The position numbers and the translations under genes were made by a program. Shown one piece after another: positions 3,695 to 12,373 of a stretch of DNA of 64,000 nt. Below the pieces are notes generated by a model. That model was not told the DNA's origin and ran no database searches. It saw nothing but the letters and a program-made list of their open reading frames with translations. Positions within the stretch are counted from its first letter, which is position 1; the number at the start of each line of letters is the position of its first letter. The stretch comes from Candidatus Nitrotoga fabula (GTDB lineage: Bacteria > Pseudomonadota > Gammaproteobacteria > Burkholderiales > Gallionellaceae), in NCBI RefSeq assembly GCF_905221025.1, contig NZ_CAJNBL010000026.1:1-64000 (forward strand). Direction: 5' to 3'.

Positions 3695-5212
3695 TTATCC
3701 GCCATTAATTTTAAATCCGGTAATTTTGATGATGTCATCGGTGTGATAGTCATCCACCTCGGGCATATTGTCATCACGGGAATGCTGGAGCGAAACATAG
3801 GCTGTAGTCCCATCCGCAGAGAATATGAAACCCGTTAGTTCCGCTGTTGGGTCTTTTACAGAAAGCATCTTGACGCATCCGTCTGACTTAATATCGCGAT
3901 CCGTTCCATCTGGCAGGCAGGCAAATATATCGCCATTTTTATGGTCTTCAATCACGTACAAATTGCCCGTCTTTGGTTGAAATTCAAGGTTGTCAAAGGA
4001 GTTGAAATCGTCATCTCCCTCTATAAATCTGCTTACATCAACAATGCGATTATTTATTTTTGTATCTAGTGGATTATCGTCCACAGCGCACATTACTTCA
4101 GCAAAGTTAAATGCAATTTCGTTGCCAGTGTTAGCCCAGCAAAAACGGATTGCATTGGGATTGAGAGAATCAACGTAGGTCAAATCCTGATGCAAATCTT
4201 CTGGACGATAATAGCCAGTCGCACCATTTGCATGCGCTTCGGCTCTCGCGTTAGCTGGATTAACAATTGGCATCCAGGCTGCATTGCCAATTTCACATCC
4301 CTGGCCATATTGTTGCTTGTCGCTCGCGCATGAAACCTGCAGCGCATAAACGGTTCCCGAAGCTAACGGGGAACTGCCCAAGTCGCTGACTGGCAGATTT
4401 CCAACACGGGCTTTTTGTGGCACAAATTTAAATATGGTTCCGCCATCTTCATCTGCCCCTTCACTTTCAACGGCACCTGGCTGGGCAGTGCCCGGACGCA
4501 GTTCTTCTCCAGCGATTACCACACCGGATGGCAGAACTGCCAATCCTTCCCAAGCCATGGTCGGCAGTGCAGTGCGTTTGGCGATGTGAACTGGATCAGT
4601 CGTAACCCCTGCCGCTCGGTTCGTGACCGATTGATTAAGGACATTCAAGGGATCCATGATTTCATATGCTCCCCCGTCGATTCTTTCTTCCACAGCAAGA
4701 ATGGTATTCCATGGGGTCGTACGGATACCGCCACAGCCATCCATGCCACGCAAGATTGTCGAAACTTCTCCGGATACCAGGTTAATACGCTGTATGGACG
4801 GATTGAGTTTTCCTCCGCTTAGTTCCTGCCTATTTCCTTGCACGCAGGCAATCAAATGCGTGGGATTTTCTAACGGAAAGAAGGCCATCATGTCCGTCCT
4901 TTCTGCGGCATTACGGGTCAAGTATTGCACCTGCAGACCGTCCGCTGCCAGAACCTGGTCCATGGCTTGCTGTGCTGGACTACGATAGGCTTCGTCCTTC
5001 GATAATTCCGGTGCGGACTGATTTAGTGGCTGACCAAAGCCGAACAATATTTCAGACTGCATTTTCAGCATTTGCTCTACCGTTGCACCAAAATCCTTCT
5101 CTTTGGCCAAATTATCAGGATTATCTGCAGCTACTGCAATCAATATAGAGTTAGCAAAAAACACTGAAGTCAGGGCAATTGCAAATGTGGAAAACGAAGG
5201 TATATGACTCAT
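3695..5212 (-). CDS. Secreted PhoX/DUF839-family protein, copy 1
   Basis: 505 residues. The first 29 form a Sec-type signal peptide (FAIALTSVFFANSILIAVAA), and no twin-arginine motif is visible, unlike classical PhoX. The body is a DUF839/PhoX-type beta-propeller: WNTILAVEE, AWEGLAVLPSGVVIAGEELRPG, GTIFKFVP, YRPEDLHQDL and FDNLEFQPKTGNLYVIEDH are typical blade motifs with acidic metal-binding residues. PhoX enzymes are calcium/iron-dependent alkaline phosphatases, and some DUF839 proteins have no known activity. It is paralogous along its whole length to the product of 8320-9807. No strong ribosome site precedes the start. The phosphatase role is inferred from the family. Confidence 0.75.
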   Translation of the reverse strand: MSHIPSFSTFAIALTSVFFANSILIAVAADNPDNLAKEKDFGATVEQMLKMQSEILFGFGQPLNQSAPELSKDEAYRSPAQQAMDQVLAADGLQVQYLTRNAAERTDMMAFFPLENPTHLIACVQGNRQELSGGKLNPSIQRINLVSGEVSTILRGMDGCGGIRTTPWNTILAVEERIDGGAYEIMDPLNVLNQSVTNRAAGVTTDPVHIAKRTALPTMAWEGLAVLPSGVVIAGEELRPGTAQPGAVESEGADEDGGTIFKFVPQKARVGNLPVSDLGSSPLASGTVYALQVSCASDKQQYGQGCEIGNAAWMPIVNPANARAEAHANGATGYYRPEDLHQDLTYVDSLNPNAIRFCWANTGNEIAFNFAEVMCAVDDNPLDTKINNRIVDVSRFIEGDDDFNSFDNLEFQPKTGNLYVIEDHKNGDIFACLPDGTDRDIKSDGCVKMLSVKDPTAELTGFIFSADGTTAYVSLQHSRDDNMPEVDDYHTDDIIKITGFKINGG

Positions 5213-8319: not shown

Positions 8320-9807
8320 TTATTTTTTAATCTTGAACCCCGTGATCCTGATAACGTCATCGGTGTGATAATCATCCACCTTGGTCATGTTTCCATCATT
8401 CGAATGCTGGATTGAAACATATGCAGTAGTACCATCCCCTGTGAAAATAAAACCTGTTGGTTCCGCACTGGAATCTTTCACGGAAAGCATCTTCACGCAC
8501 CCGTCAGTCTTGATGTCACGATCCTTACCATCTGGCAGGCAGGCAAAAATATCGCCATTTTCATGATCCTCAATCACATACAGATTGCCGGTTTTTGGCT
8601 GGAATTCAAGATTATCAAAGGAATTGAAATCTGCATCTCCCTCAACAAACCGGTTTACATCGATCTGGCGGGCTGGCTTTGCTTCATCTTCTGCAGGATT
8701 GTCATCCACCCCACAAATCACCTCACCAAAATTAAACGCTCCTTCATTGCCAGTATTGGCCCAACAGAACCGGACAGACTCCGGATTGATGGGGTCTGCA
8801 TAGGATAAATCCTGATGCAGATCTTCCGGGCGATAATAGCCGGTCGCGCCATTTGCATTCGCTTCCGCCCTGGCCTGGCCTGGATCAATGATCGGTATCC
8901 AGTCTGCATTGCCAATTTCACATCCCTGGCCGAACTGCTGCTTATTGTTCACGCATGAAACCTGCAAGGCATAAACCGTACCCGCAGTAAGTGGAGAACT
9001 GGCCAGGTCGTTGATTGGCTGGTTTCCTATGCGCACCGTCTGCGGAACAAACTTGAAAATTGCACCGCCATCCGCATCATTGCCCGTACCTGTAGGAGTA
9101 CCCGGGCGCAATTCATCGCCAGCAATTACCACCCCGGACGAAAGAATTTCCAGCCCTTCCCAAGCCATGGTAGGAAGTGCAGTGCGCTTGGCAATATGCG
9201 CTGGGTCGGTCGTTGTTCCTGCACCACGATCCAGGACCGTTTGATTTACAACATTCAGCGGGTCAATGATTTCGTACGCTCCGCCCTGATCGTCTTCTTC
9301 GGTAGCCAGAATGGTATTCCAGGGAGTAGTGCGAATACCGTCGCAACTATCCAGGCCACGCAAGATCGTTTTCACTTCTCCTGATGTGAGATGGATGCTC
9401 TGGATGGATGGGTTGAATTTTCCTCCGCCCAAATCCTGACGTCCCCCCTCGACGCAGGTAATCAAGTGCGTAGGATTGTCCAACGGGTAAAACGCCATCA
9501 TGTCTGTTTTATCTGCGGCATTGCGTGTCAGGTACGTTGCATTAAGACCATCGGCAACCAAAACCTGGTCGATTGCCTGCTGAGCTGGAGAACGGTAGGC
9601 CCCTGTTGTTTCCGGCGCAGACTGGATGAGCGGCTGATTAAAGCCGAAAAGCGTTTCAGATTGTGCATTCAGCAATTGTTCTACCGTGACACCAAAATCC
9701 TTCTTTTTACCTGGATTTTCCCCTGCTTCTGCAACCAGAAATGATGTAGTAAAGAAAGCAGATGCAAGGGCAAGAGCAAGTGCGGTTCGTGAAGGCGTAT
9801 AGTTCAT
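8320..9807 (-). CDS. Secreted PhoX/DUF839-family protein, copy 2
   Basis: 495 residues from the ATG at 9807, chosen because CCAGGAG lies about 8 nt upstream and because the signal peptide (MNYTPSRTALALALASAFF) then starts at residue 1. A frame extending to 9885 adds 26 residues with no such site. The body is collinear with copy 1 at 3695-5212 and keeps the same propeller motifs (WNTILATEED, AWEGLEILSSGVVIAGDELRPG, YYRPEDLHQDLSY, FDNLEFQPKTGNLYVIEDHENGD). A Ca-dependent secreted phosphatase is the family-based guess. A PhoB-box-like repeat array lies about 100 bp upstream. The pair probably arose by duplication before the IS5 and MFS genes separated them. Confidence 0.78.
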   Translation of the reverse strand: MNYTPSRTALALALASAFFTTSFLVAEAGENPGKKKDFGVTVEQLLNAQSETLFGFNQPLIQSAPETTGAYRSPAQQAIDQVLVADGLNATYLTRNAADKTDMMAFYPLDNPTHLITCVEGGRQDLGGGKFNPSIQSIHLTSGEVKTILRGLDSCDGIRTTPWNTILATEEDDQGGAYEIIDPLNVVNQTVLDRGAGTTTDPAHIAKRTALPTMAWEGLEILSSGVVIAGDELRPGTPTGTGNDADGGAIFKFVPQTVRIGNQPINDLASSPLTAGTVYALQVSCVNNKQQFGQGCEIGNADWIPIIDPGQARAEANANGATGYYRPEDLHQDLSYADPINPESVRFCWANTGNEGAFNFGEVICGVDDNPAEDEAKPARQIDVNRFVEGDADFNSFDNLEFQPKTGNLYVIEDHENGDIFACLPDGKDRDIKTDGCVKMLSVKDSSAEPTGFIFTGDGTTAYVSIQHSNDGNMTKVDDYHTDDVIRITGFKIKK

Positions 9808-10165
9808 TTGAATGACTCCTGGCAAAATATTTAATAAATCGGTTAGCTGTCCAACCTCAACATCCATGAAACTTTCTGAAGTCAAACTGCAGGGCCAGTG
9901 TAATCAGCGAATATGACAGCAAAATTAATAAAATATGACAGTACGATTAATTTTGAAGGTTTTAGAAAAAATGCGAAATTTCATTTATAATGAAATAGGG
10001 AACTTGCCTCATTGCAACAAGCAGTAGCATTCTATGAAATGCAGAAGGAGACAAAACCTGGACAGGTTTCCCTTGTTCGTTGATGTCCATCGATATCCAT
10101 TGATTTGATTCTCCGGATATCCCGGATCCAGGAATATAATCGTATTATTGATAAATGGAGTGCAT
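9808..10165. other. Divergent intergenic region between PhoX-like copy 2 and the repeat-peptide gene
   Basis: No gene is supported. The region holds the PhoB-like box (9909-9941, minus strand). A TATAAT hexamer at 10135-10140 lies 25 bp before the repeat-peptide ATG, with no good -35 at standard spacing. Between these the DNA is AT-rich. Confidence 0.5.
9909..9941 (-). promoter_or_regulatory. Candidate PhoB box upstream of PhoX-like copy 2
   Basis: On the minus strand three consecutive 11-bp units read CTGTCATATTT, TATTAATTTTG, CTGTCATATTC. The outer two are near-perfect PhoB half-sites (consensus CTGTCAT followed by four A/T) and the middle one is degenerate. They keep the 11-bp phase that PhoB dimers require. 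The array lies about 100 bp upstream of the start of a PhoX-family gene. Regulation by phosphate starvation is inferred. Confidence 0.55.
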
Positions 10166-10342
10166 ATGTTAACTGCAAAAAATACATCGGTATTAGCACC
10201 ATACGGATCCATGAAACTCATCAGCCTGGCAACAAAGGTAGGAAATGGAAAAGTTCATTTGCCTTTATTGGCGCCATATGGTTCCGTGAAATTTATTCCA
10301 CTGGCTACCAAGCAAGCCAAGGTTCCATCACCTATTAAATAG
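10166..10342 (+). CDS. 58-residue protein made of two 15-residue repeats
   Basis: A small protein that I do not recognise. Residues 10-24 (LAPYGSMKLISLATK) and 35-49 (LAPYGSVKFIPLATK) share 12 of 15 positions. They are separated by a short basic, glycine-containing linker, with an N-terminal MLTAKNTSV and a C-terminal proline/lysine tail. There is no cysteine, signal peptide or membrane segment. Coding is supported by GGAG five nt before the ATG, and by the repeats differing mostly at third codon positions: about seven synonymous codon changes against three replacements. That is the mark of selection on the peptide. A small hairpin overlaps the stop codon. It stands alone between genes of the opposite strand. 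A repeat-bearing precursor peptide or a small beta-strand binding protein are both possible. Confidence 0.62.
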   Translation: MLTAKNTSVLAPYGSMKLISLATKVGNGKVHLPLLAPYGSVKFIPLATKQAKVPSPIK

Positions 10343-10661: not shown

Positions 10662-11423
10662 CTAATTTCTAATCTTATACCCGGTCTTGAATACCCACCA
10701 GACAAACGTCAGGCAGAGCACAAGAAAACCAGAGGTCATACCGAGGCTCAAGGCAACATCCACTTCGGCCATACCATAAAAACTCCAGCGAAAGCCACTG
10801 ATCAGATACACTACTGGGTTGAACAAGGTAATCTCCTGCCACAAAGGAGGCAGCATATGAATCGAATAGAATGCGCCCCCCAGAAAAGTCAACGGAGTAG
10901 CGATCAACATCGGCACGACTTGCAGCTTCTGGAAGCTATCGGCCCACAGGCCGATAATGAAGCCAAACAGACTGAAAGTCACTGCTGTGAGCAGCAAAAA
11001 AGCAATCATCCATCCAGGATGAACGATCTCATAGGGCACGAAAATACGGGCGGTACCCATAATGAGCAGACCTAGCATCACAGACTTGGTCGCTGCAGCC
11101 CCCACATAACCGATCAGCACTTCAATCCACGAAACCGGCGCCGAGAGCAGTTCGTAAATTGTCCCAGCCCACTTGGGCATGTAAATGCCGAACGAGGCGT
11201 TCGAAATGCTTTCATTCAGCAAATTGAGCATGATCAGGCCGGGAATGATGAAAGCGCCGTAACTGATGTTGTCAATTTGTCCCATACGCGAACCGATGGC
11301 CTTGCCAAAAACGATAAAATATAGCGAAGTGGTCAATACCGGCGCGATGATACTTTGCGACAGCGTGCGAAATGTGCGCGCCATTTCAAAACGGTAAATG
11401 GCGCGAATGCCATAAAGATTCAT
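10662..11423 (-). CDS. ABC-2 type transporter permease (YadH-like)
   Basis: 253 residues with six hydrophobic helices in the ABC-2 pattern. The N-terminus ([30 protein letters not shown]) and the centre ([12 protein letters not shown] and [17 protein letters not shown]) match COG0842 permeases such as E. coli YadH. The start codon overlaps the end of the upstream ATPase gene by 4 bp, so the two are translationally coupled and form one exporter. The substrate is unknown: YadGH-like systems are annotated as multidrug or polysaccharide exporters without firm proof. Confidence 0.85.
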
Positions 11424-12373
11424 GCCGCTTCCCCCCTGGATTGTTGAATCAAACTGACGAAAATGTCCTCCAGCGAACTTTCACTTGAGCGAAGATCCTT
11501 GAAGTCAATGCCGTGTTCTCCCAGCGTGCGCAACAGCTCTGGAATACCCGTCTCATCTTCCTGAGTATTGTAACGATAATCCACAGTATGCCCGCCTTCG
11601 GCAAGTATTAACGACCAGCTTTCCAGACCGGCAGGAAGGCTGTTGATGGGATGTCGCAAGGTCAGTGTAAGCTGTTTTTTGCCAAGCTTGCGCATCAGCA
11701 CTTCCTTGTCTTCCACCACAATCAGCTCTCCCTTGTTAATAACACCGATGCGGTCTGCCATGTCTTCGGCTTCTTCAATGTAATGCGTAGTCAGAATGAT
11801 GGTGGTACCCTGTGCTCGAAGTTCGCGCACCATACGCCACATGTCATGCCGCAATTCAACATCCACGCCGGCACTCGGCTCATCAAGAAACAGGATCAAT
11901 GGTTCATGCGCAAGAGCCTTGGCGATCAGCACCCGGCGTTTCATTCCGCCCGATAGCGTCATGACTTTTGCGTCCCGTTTGTCCCATAGCGTTAAATCGC
12001 GCAGCACTTTTTCCAGATAAGGTGCATTGGGCGCCTTACCAAACAGGCCCCGGCTAAAATTGACAGTAGCCCAGACTGTCTCGAACGCGTCGGTATGCAG
12101 TTCCTGGGGTACCAGGCCAATGGCAGCCCGCGCAGCACGAAAATCTTTTACGATATCCTGCCCGTCGACAGTGATGGTTCCGGAACTGGCATTGACAATA
12201 CCGCAAATGATGCTGATAAGAGTCGTCTTGCCTGCACCATTTGGCCCGAGCAGGGCAAATATCTCGCCACGCGCTATCTCCAGATGAATATTTTTTAACG
12301 CAAGAAAACCACCCGCATAGGTTTTGTTGACACCATGCGCAAAAATGATGGGGCTATTCTGATCCACAACCAT
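11420..12373 (-). CDS. ABC transporter ATP-binding protein (YadG-like)
   Basis: 317 residues. A full nucleotide-binding domain is present: Walker [10 protein letters not shown] near residues 43-51, the Q-loop region (GLVPQELH), the signature LSGGMKRR, Walker [14 protein letters not shown] and the switch His in TTHYIEEAE. About 80 residues follow the domain, ending in the DIFVSL motif common to CcmA/YadG-type export ATPases. It sits directly before the permease at 10662-11423 with a 4-bp overlap. The complex probably exports a lipid, drug or surface-glycan intermediate, but nothing nearby identifies the cargo. Confidence 0.88.

Follow-up and report, generated by a model that had tools for sequence, protein, structure and literature searches.

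The window, by which we mean the whole 64,000-nucleotide stretch of DNA from the nitrifying bacterium Candidatus Nitrotoga fabula analysed here, contains a small gene with two repeats of the pattern LAPYGS..K.I.LATK. Its features are as follows.

10166-10342, plus strand: two-unit LAPYGS peptide gene, 58 residues, ATG start and TAA stop; proposed RiPP precursor
10157-10160, plus strand: Shine-Dalgarno-like GGAG, 5 nt 5' of the ATG of this gene, identified from the sequence
10193-10237, plus strand: 15-residue repeat 1, LAPYGSMKLISLATK
10268-10312, plus strand: 15-residue repeat 2, LAPYGSVKFIPLATK
10193-10243, plus strand: unit 1, LAPYGSMKLISLATKVG
10268-10318, plus strand: unit 2, LAPYGSVKFIPLATKQA, off consensus beyond the conserved Lys

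The original prediction had described a gene with two 15-residue repeats sharing 12 identities and preceded by a ribosome site, and the sequence bears this out (12 of 15 residues are identical). The repeat codons had also been said to differ mainly at synonymous positions. When repeat 1 is compared with repeat 2, five of the 15 codons are identical, seven differ synonymously and three non-synonymously, in agreement with that claim. The 13 nucleotide differences are distributed 3/1/9 over codon positions 1/2/3, and 13 randomly placed changes kept at least 12 residues in 4 of 20,000 trials. Asp and Glu are both absent from the window peptide. Searches of Pfam and NCBIfam returned nothing meaningful for this peptide or its relatives.

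An ABC transporter encoded beside the peptide gene (window 10662-12373) was considered as a possible exporter. We did not adopt this assignment because 14 relatives of the genus (L093-L106) have the same conserved gene pair but not the peptide. In the two relatives inspected, another gene (QueD-like by eye) is found at the 3' end of the ABC pair, the position of the peptide gene in the window; this difference is a lineage-specific rearrangement. PhoX-family paralogues (PF05787; window 3695-5212 and 8320-9807) flank carbonic-anhydrase-like and MFS genes near the peptide gene.

The window gene, the only one described in the original prediction, does not stand alone. A search of its own genome (2.3 Mb, 44 contigs) revealed a family of nine genes carrying 11 units, with a profile E-value of 1e-16 within the genome. 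The members are listed by contig and position, the strand being given where it is minus.

C26:10166: the window gene, two units
C2:22586: one unit and a Pro-rich tail; first of the C2 tandem
C2:22844: two units; second of the C2 tandem
C2:23084: one unit and a Pro-rich tail; third of the C2 tandem
C22:30917: stand-alone, one unit, 32 residues
C3:30231, minus strand: 46 residues with a Pro-rich tail
C22:4446: one unit, then a Peptidase_S74 domain
C22:5467, minus strand: one unit, then a Peptidase_S74 domain
C3:9745, minus strand: one unit, then a Peptidase_S74 domain

A purine-rich site is present at the same place before the start codon in all nine genes. LAPYGS and the Lys within ATK are both invariant in 11 of 11 units, and each LAPYGS position is encoded by two to five different codons. 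The pairwise differences per site within LAPYGS amount to 0.12, 0.03 and 0.59 at codon positions 1, 2 and 3, respectively, without any residue change. Judged from these sequences, the third codon positions are saturated and selection acts on the amino-acid sequence; the purifying selection claimed in the original prediction is thus clear from 11 paralogous units. Across the paralogues, LAPYG and one Lys are invariant and the C-termini are variable, which meets the expectation for a RiPP precursor of a conserved recognition part and a variable rest. The closest relative of the window peptide is the two-unit peptide at C2:22844-23032 (58% identity). Short upstream strings are shared by some members, ATATACTTGAAAAA by C3:30231 and C22:5467 and TTGATAAATGGAG by the window gene and C3:9745; these are perhaps promoter or duplication traces. 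The 46-residue gene on C3 lies downstream of genes for a LodA-like quinoprotein oxidase (PF17990, PF18417) and its flavoprotein partner (L028, C3:30091-33649). LodA itself matures through a post-translational modification.

The three tandem genes on C2 are situated 0.4-1.1 kb downstream of a gene (C2:21100-22143) encoding a 347-residue protein, P0001. This protein matches TIGR04267, the aKG-HExxH-type peptide beta-hydroxylase model, with 77.4 bits against a cut-off of 40 (E 1.3e-21), and a profile of its family matches ChlH, a RiPP enzyme of known structure (8s5f, E 2e-16). Residues H224, E225, H228, H265, R254 and R258 are invariant in 16 relatives; the HExxH and the downstream His and Arg residues required of this enzyme class are thus present, and they align with ChlH (8s5f). 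Divergent from the P0001 gene are the genes for P0002, a 623-residue ATP-grasp protein whose best NCBIfam and PDB matches are cyanophycin synthetases, and, near it, P0003, a 2OG-Fe(II) oxygenase (PF13640). The motif is found in one of 158 genomes of the taxonomic family and a TIGR04267 HExxH enzyme likewise in one of 158, and it is the same genome; P0002 is found in one of 19 genomes of the genus. The C2 cluster contains neither an exporter nor a leader protease. A decayed-looking LAPYGS unit, LHCYGSMGFRMIPLAIWGW, was noticed between the ATP-grasp and HExxH genes (L024:4900-5000, C2 near 20,930). Its score reaches only the 95% level of shuffled sequences, and it was not counted as a family member.

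Homologues in other families provide an independent test. A search profile built from the units of the window's genome alone, blind to neighboring genes, was used to scan 399 genomes of the order. It found G1023 (E 8e-9) and G1028 (E 7e-8), which belong to two other families; the G1023 peptide is MQNQAPLAPYGALRFTPISTKVGGGKGLDKPA and that of G1028 begins with MTKKYTAPLLAPYGSLQNLALAAKVGGGKGG. Both genomes carry, in this order, a divergent ATP-grasp gene, the LAPYG peptide gene and the HExxH gene, and the ATP-grasp proteins are 35-36% identical to P0002. Because the neighbors were absent from the profile, this gene order represents a prediction that was met. The three LAPYG-linked HExxH enzymes form one clade (support 95/95). 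A peptide gene linked to genes of modifying enzymes, as expected for a RiPP precursor, is therefore found at the C2 locus, in G1023 and in G1028, and the linkage rests on these three loci. Absence of homologues from related genomes had been named as a result that would refute the original prediction. This absence is real within the genus and the family, but it is outweighed by the paralogues and the two homologues in other families. The site of LHCYGSMGFRMIPLAIWGW on C2 is the one at which G1023 and G1028 carry an intact peptide.

Two further matches of the order-wide search (f25) were dropped (E 0.007, stop inside), and weak family-level matches in other genera, including G044 (stop inside), were dropped as chance. 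Motif searches of viral contigs and of GTDB r220 contigs gave pattern matches and zero confirmed relatives. In the G1023 locus, a protein of 1105 residues (L118:10714-14031) matches P0002 over its C-terminal half and appears AMP-binding-like by eye at its N-terminus; it is possible that it represents a fusion within the RiPP locus.

Twelve other HExxH loci were compared, all taken from whole genomes within the class and the phylum. In nine of them, a small ORF lies 10-140 nt upstream of the HExxH gene and carries a leader with K[LM][LYF]G or NLLG that fits the pattern [IV]xL[DN]xx[KN][LM][LYF]G; the rest of these ORFs is Lys-rich and often repeated (e.g., GAKIGKAP, LKMGGK). A P0002-like ATP-grasp is also present in two of these loci. 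A different protein of ~320 residues is common to seven of the 12 loci, and an AMP-binding protein occurs in one (L089). No homology between the LAPYG unit and the KLLGF leaders was detected by hhalign. What the two kinds of peptide have in common is their place, their partner and a K[IV]G stretch seen by eye. More widely in Pseudomonadota, aKG-HExxH clusters (L070-L075, L085-L089) have small precursor-like ORFs with a KLLGF leader and repeated GAKIGKAP or LKMGGK cores, usually beside the undescribed ~320-residue protein, which has no Pfam match; these clusters look like an undescribed RiPP group. A frameshift divides the ATP-grasp gene of one cluster (L071:4592-6414, G231) and may be natural or a sequencing error.

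We propose that the window gene is a two-unit RiPP precursor, one of nine dispersed in the genome, matured in trans by the system encoded on C2, and we put the probability of this reading at about 80%. The gene, its family, the selection, the linkage in three genomes, the enzyme clade and the conserved catalytic residues are observed, and our confidence derives mainly from the prediction met in G1023 and G1028. The original prediction of a real, perhaps undescribed small protein is supported; for its function, a modified peptide precursor or a binding module had been offered. Since HExxH and ATP-grasp enzymes flank the two homologues in other families, the first is favored over the second. Trans maturation itself is inferred, the window gene being unlinked to the maturases, and the modification of its peptide, the residues modified, the cleavage, the chemistry and the role are likewise inferences made without translation, modification or product data.

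In the proposed mechanism, the window peptide would comprise two tandem units, each with a recognition part and a core. The maturation system would be encoded once in the genome, with P0001 as the hydroxylase, P0002 as the ligase and perhaps P0003. The invariant LAPYG(S) is most likely the enzyme recognition site, or it may be hydroxylated at its invariant Pro, and LATKVG(G)GK with its invariant Lys would be the likeliest core. Among known aKG-HExxH enzymes, the residue hydroxylated is His, Asp, Phe, Gln or Pro (PMC13060819, PMC12636437); candidates here would be the invariant Pro of LAPYG and the frequent Phe. For the P0002 ligase, either the invariant Lys or the C-terminus is a possible target. 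The window gene would be a dispersed copy, closest to the two-unit C2 peptide.

The system resembles known aKG-HExxH RiPP systems (ChlH/ChlBH; PflC/PosC, PMC12636437; PesO nitrilobacillins, PMC13060819; BpmH) in having a TIGR04267 hydroxylase beside small precursor genes, and the metal-binding residues of P0001 are the same as in those enzymes. Unlike them, it has a cyanophycin-synthetase-like ATP-grasp as the partner, and neither a radical SAM nor an MNIO nor an asparagine-synthetase-like partner was seen. In addition, the precursor motif is new and the precursors are scattered, some being fused to S74. An ATP-grasp partner and multi-unit precursors are also features of graspetides, i.e., microviridins and their relatives (PMC5934393, PMC8939145). 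However, P0002 is most like cyanophycin synthetase and does not qualify as a graspetide-type ligase, and the acidic core residues that graspetides need are missing from the window peptide. Without Asp or Glu, a graspetide-type side-chain lactone or lactam is impossible there. Prochlorosin-type systems employ one maturase for many unlinked precursors. The present family is similar in its many dispersed paralogous precursors and single maturation locus, but the enzymes and chemistry are different, and its conserved part is a short N-terminal unit rather than a long leader.

In the open-access literature we did not find an HExxH plus ATP-grasp RiPP, and for LAPYG none of the matches listed was relevant; subscription papers were outside the scope of both searches. 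Neither the precursor family nor the pairing of an aKG-HExxH enzyme with a cyanophycin-synthetase-like ATP-grasp was found in Pfam, NCBIfam or the open literature. The precursors are spread over a 2.3-Mb genome, and genome mining that relies on clusters would recover only three of them. A self-cleaving domain of phage type is joined to some of the precursor units. Both the enzymes and their substrates are small, which makes the system directly testable.

Several points count against the precursor reading: the window gene is unlinked, the C2 cluster lacks an exporter and a protease, the LAPYG and KLLGF peptides are not detectably homologous, the C2 peptides follow the HExxH gene instead of preceding it, and unit 2 of the window gene is divergent. 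The first and last of these would fit a situation in which working substrates are confined to the C2 peptides and the window gene is a dispersed duplicate that is translated with another function or is decaying. The gene lies on another contig, its unit 2 has QA where the consensus is VG, and the weak relic-like stretch near the C2 cluster suggests that copies may decay. We nevertheless consider this improbable. Both window units retain every invariant residue and differ mostly synonymously, the gene has an ATG, a ribosome site and an intact frame, and conservation is just as strong in the dispersed single-unit copies.

The S74 fusions bear on a second alternative. Two of the three score above the PF13884 gathering score of 22 (26.1 and 29.0 bits) and the third just below it (20.1 bits). 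Alternatively to a precursor function, the motif could be a structural or docking peptide, such as an N-terminal adhesive or trimer-stalk for S74-type fibers, with the short genes truncated and the HExxH linkage incidental. The unit is fused to S74 in three of the nine genes, and the Pro-rich tails of several short copies resemble spacers of S74 proteins in other genomes of the family. Conversely, in G1023 and G1028 the unit is free of S74 and lies between an ATP-grasp gene and an HExxH gene; S74 relatives in other genomes lack the unit; and the motif and the HExxH enzyme occur together in three of three genomes. A structural role is therefore very improbable. That the window gene is a chance ORF or a non-coding repeat, as its small size and lack of a Pfam or NCBIfam match might suggest, is already refuted by its homologues (1e-16 in the genome, and 1e-8 in two other families, where the gene order is conserved); the synonymous saturation also counts against it.

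Within the precursor reading, the S74 domain is an attractive but untested candidate for a built-in device releasing the peptide. S74 domains cleave themselves before a Ser, the partner of which is a Lys at +5 (S587/K592 in MyRF, S911/K916 in endoNF; PMC8326128). This Ser-Lys dyad is kept, with the same spacing, in all three fusions (SDIRFK, SDIRCK, SDARCK), and the SDxRxKK form seen in C22:4446, C22:5467 and C3:9745 resembles the endoNF and MyRF domains (PMC8326128). In contrast to those, the domain here is ~95 residues long and follows a ~31-residue peptide rather than a tailspike or transcription factor. Cleavage before the Ser would yield peptides of 32, 31 and 31 residues; the peptide at C22:30917, which stands alone, is 32 residues long. 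The S74 domain would accordingly trim the three sister precursors to 31-32 residues. A speculative and rather doubtful extension is a self-releasing RiPP, in which S74 trimerizes, cuts itself off and frees a modified peptide of 31-32 residues, so that one dispersed precursor family, served by a single HExxH/ATP-grasp pair, would have two processing routes.

Within the family, the S74 type of the fusions is restricted to this genome, where all three copies carry the unit; five other genomes have distant relatives of it. The nearest S74 relative in the contig scan, from a Nitrosomonadales MAG (L051), lacks the motif. On a Rhizobium etli plasmid (L061), a short S74 'tail fiber domain' protein is encoded directly after the gene for a caspase-family protein, and similar S74 relatives are present in over 70 rhizobial plasmid records.
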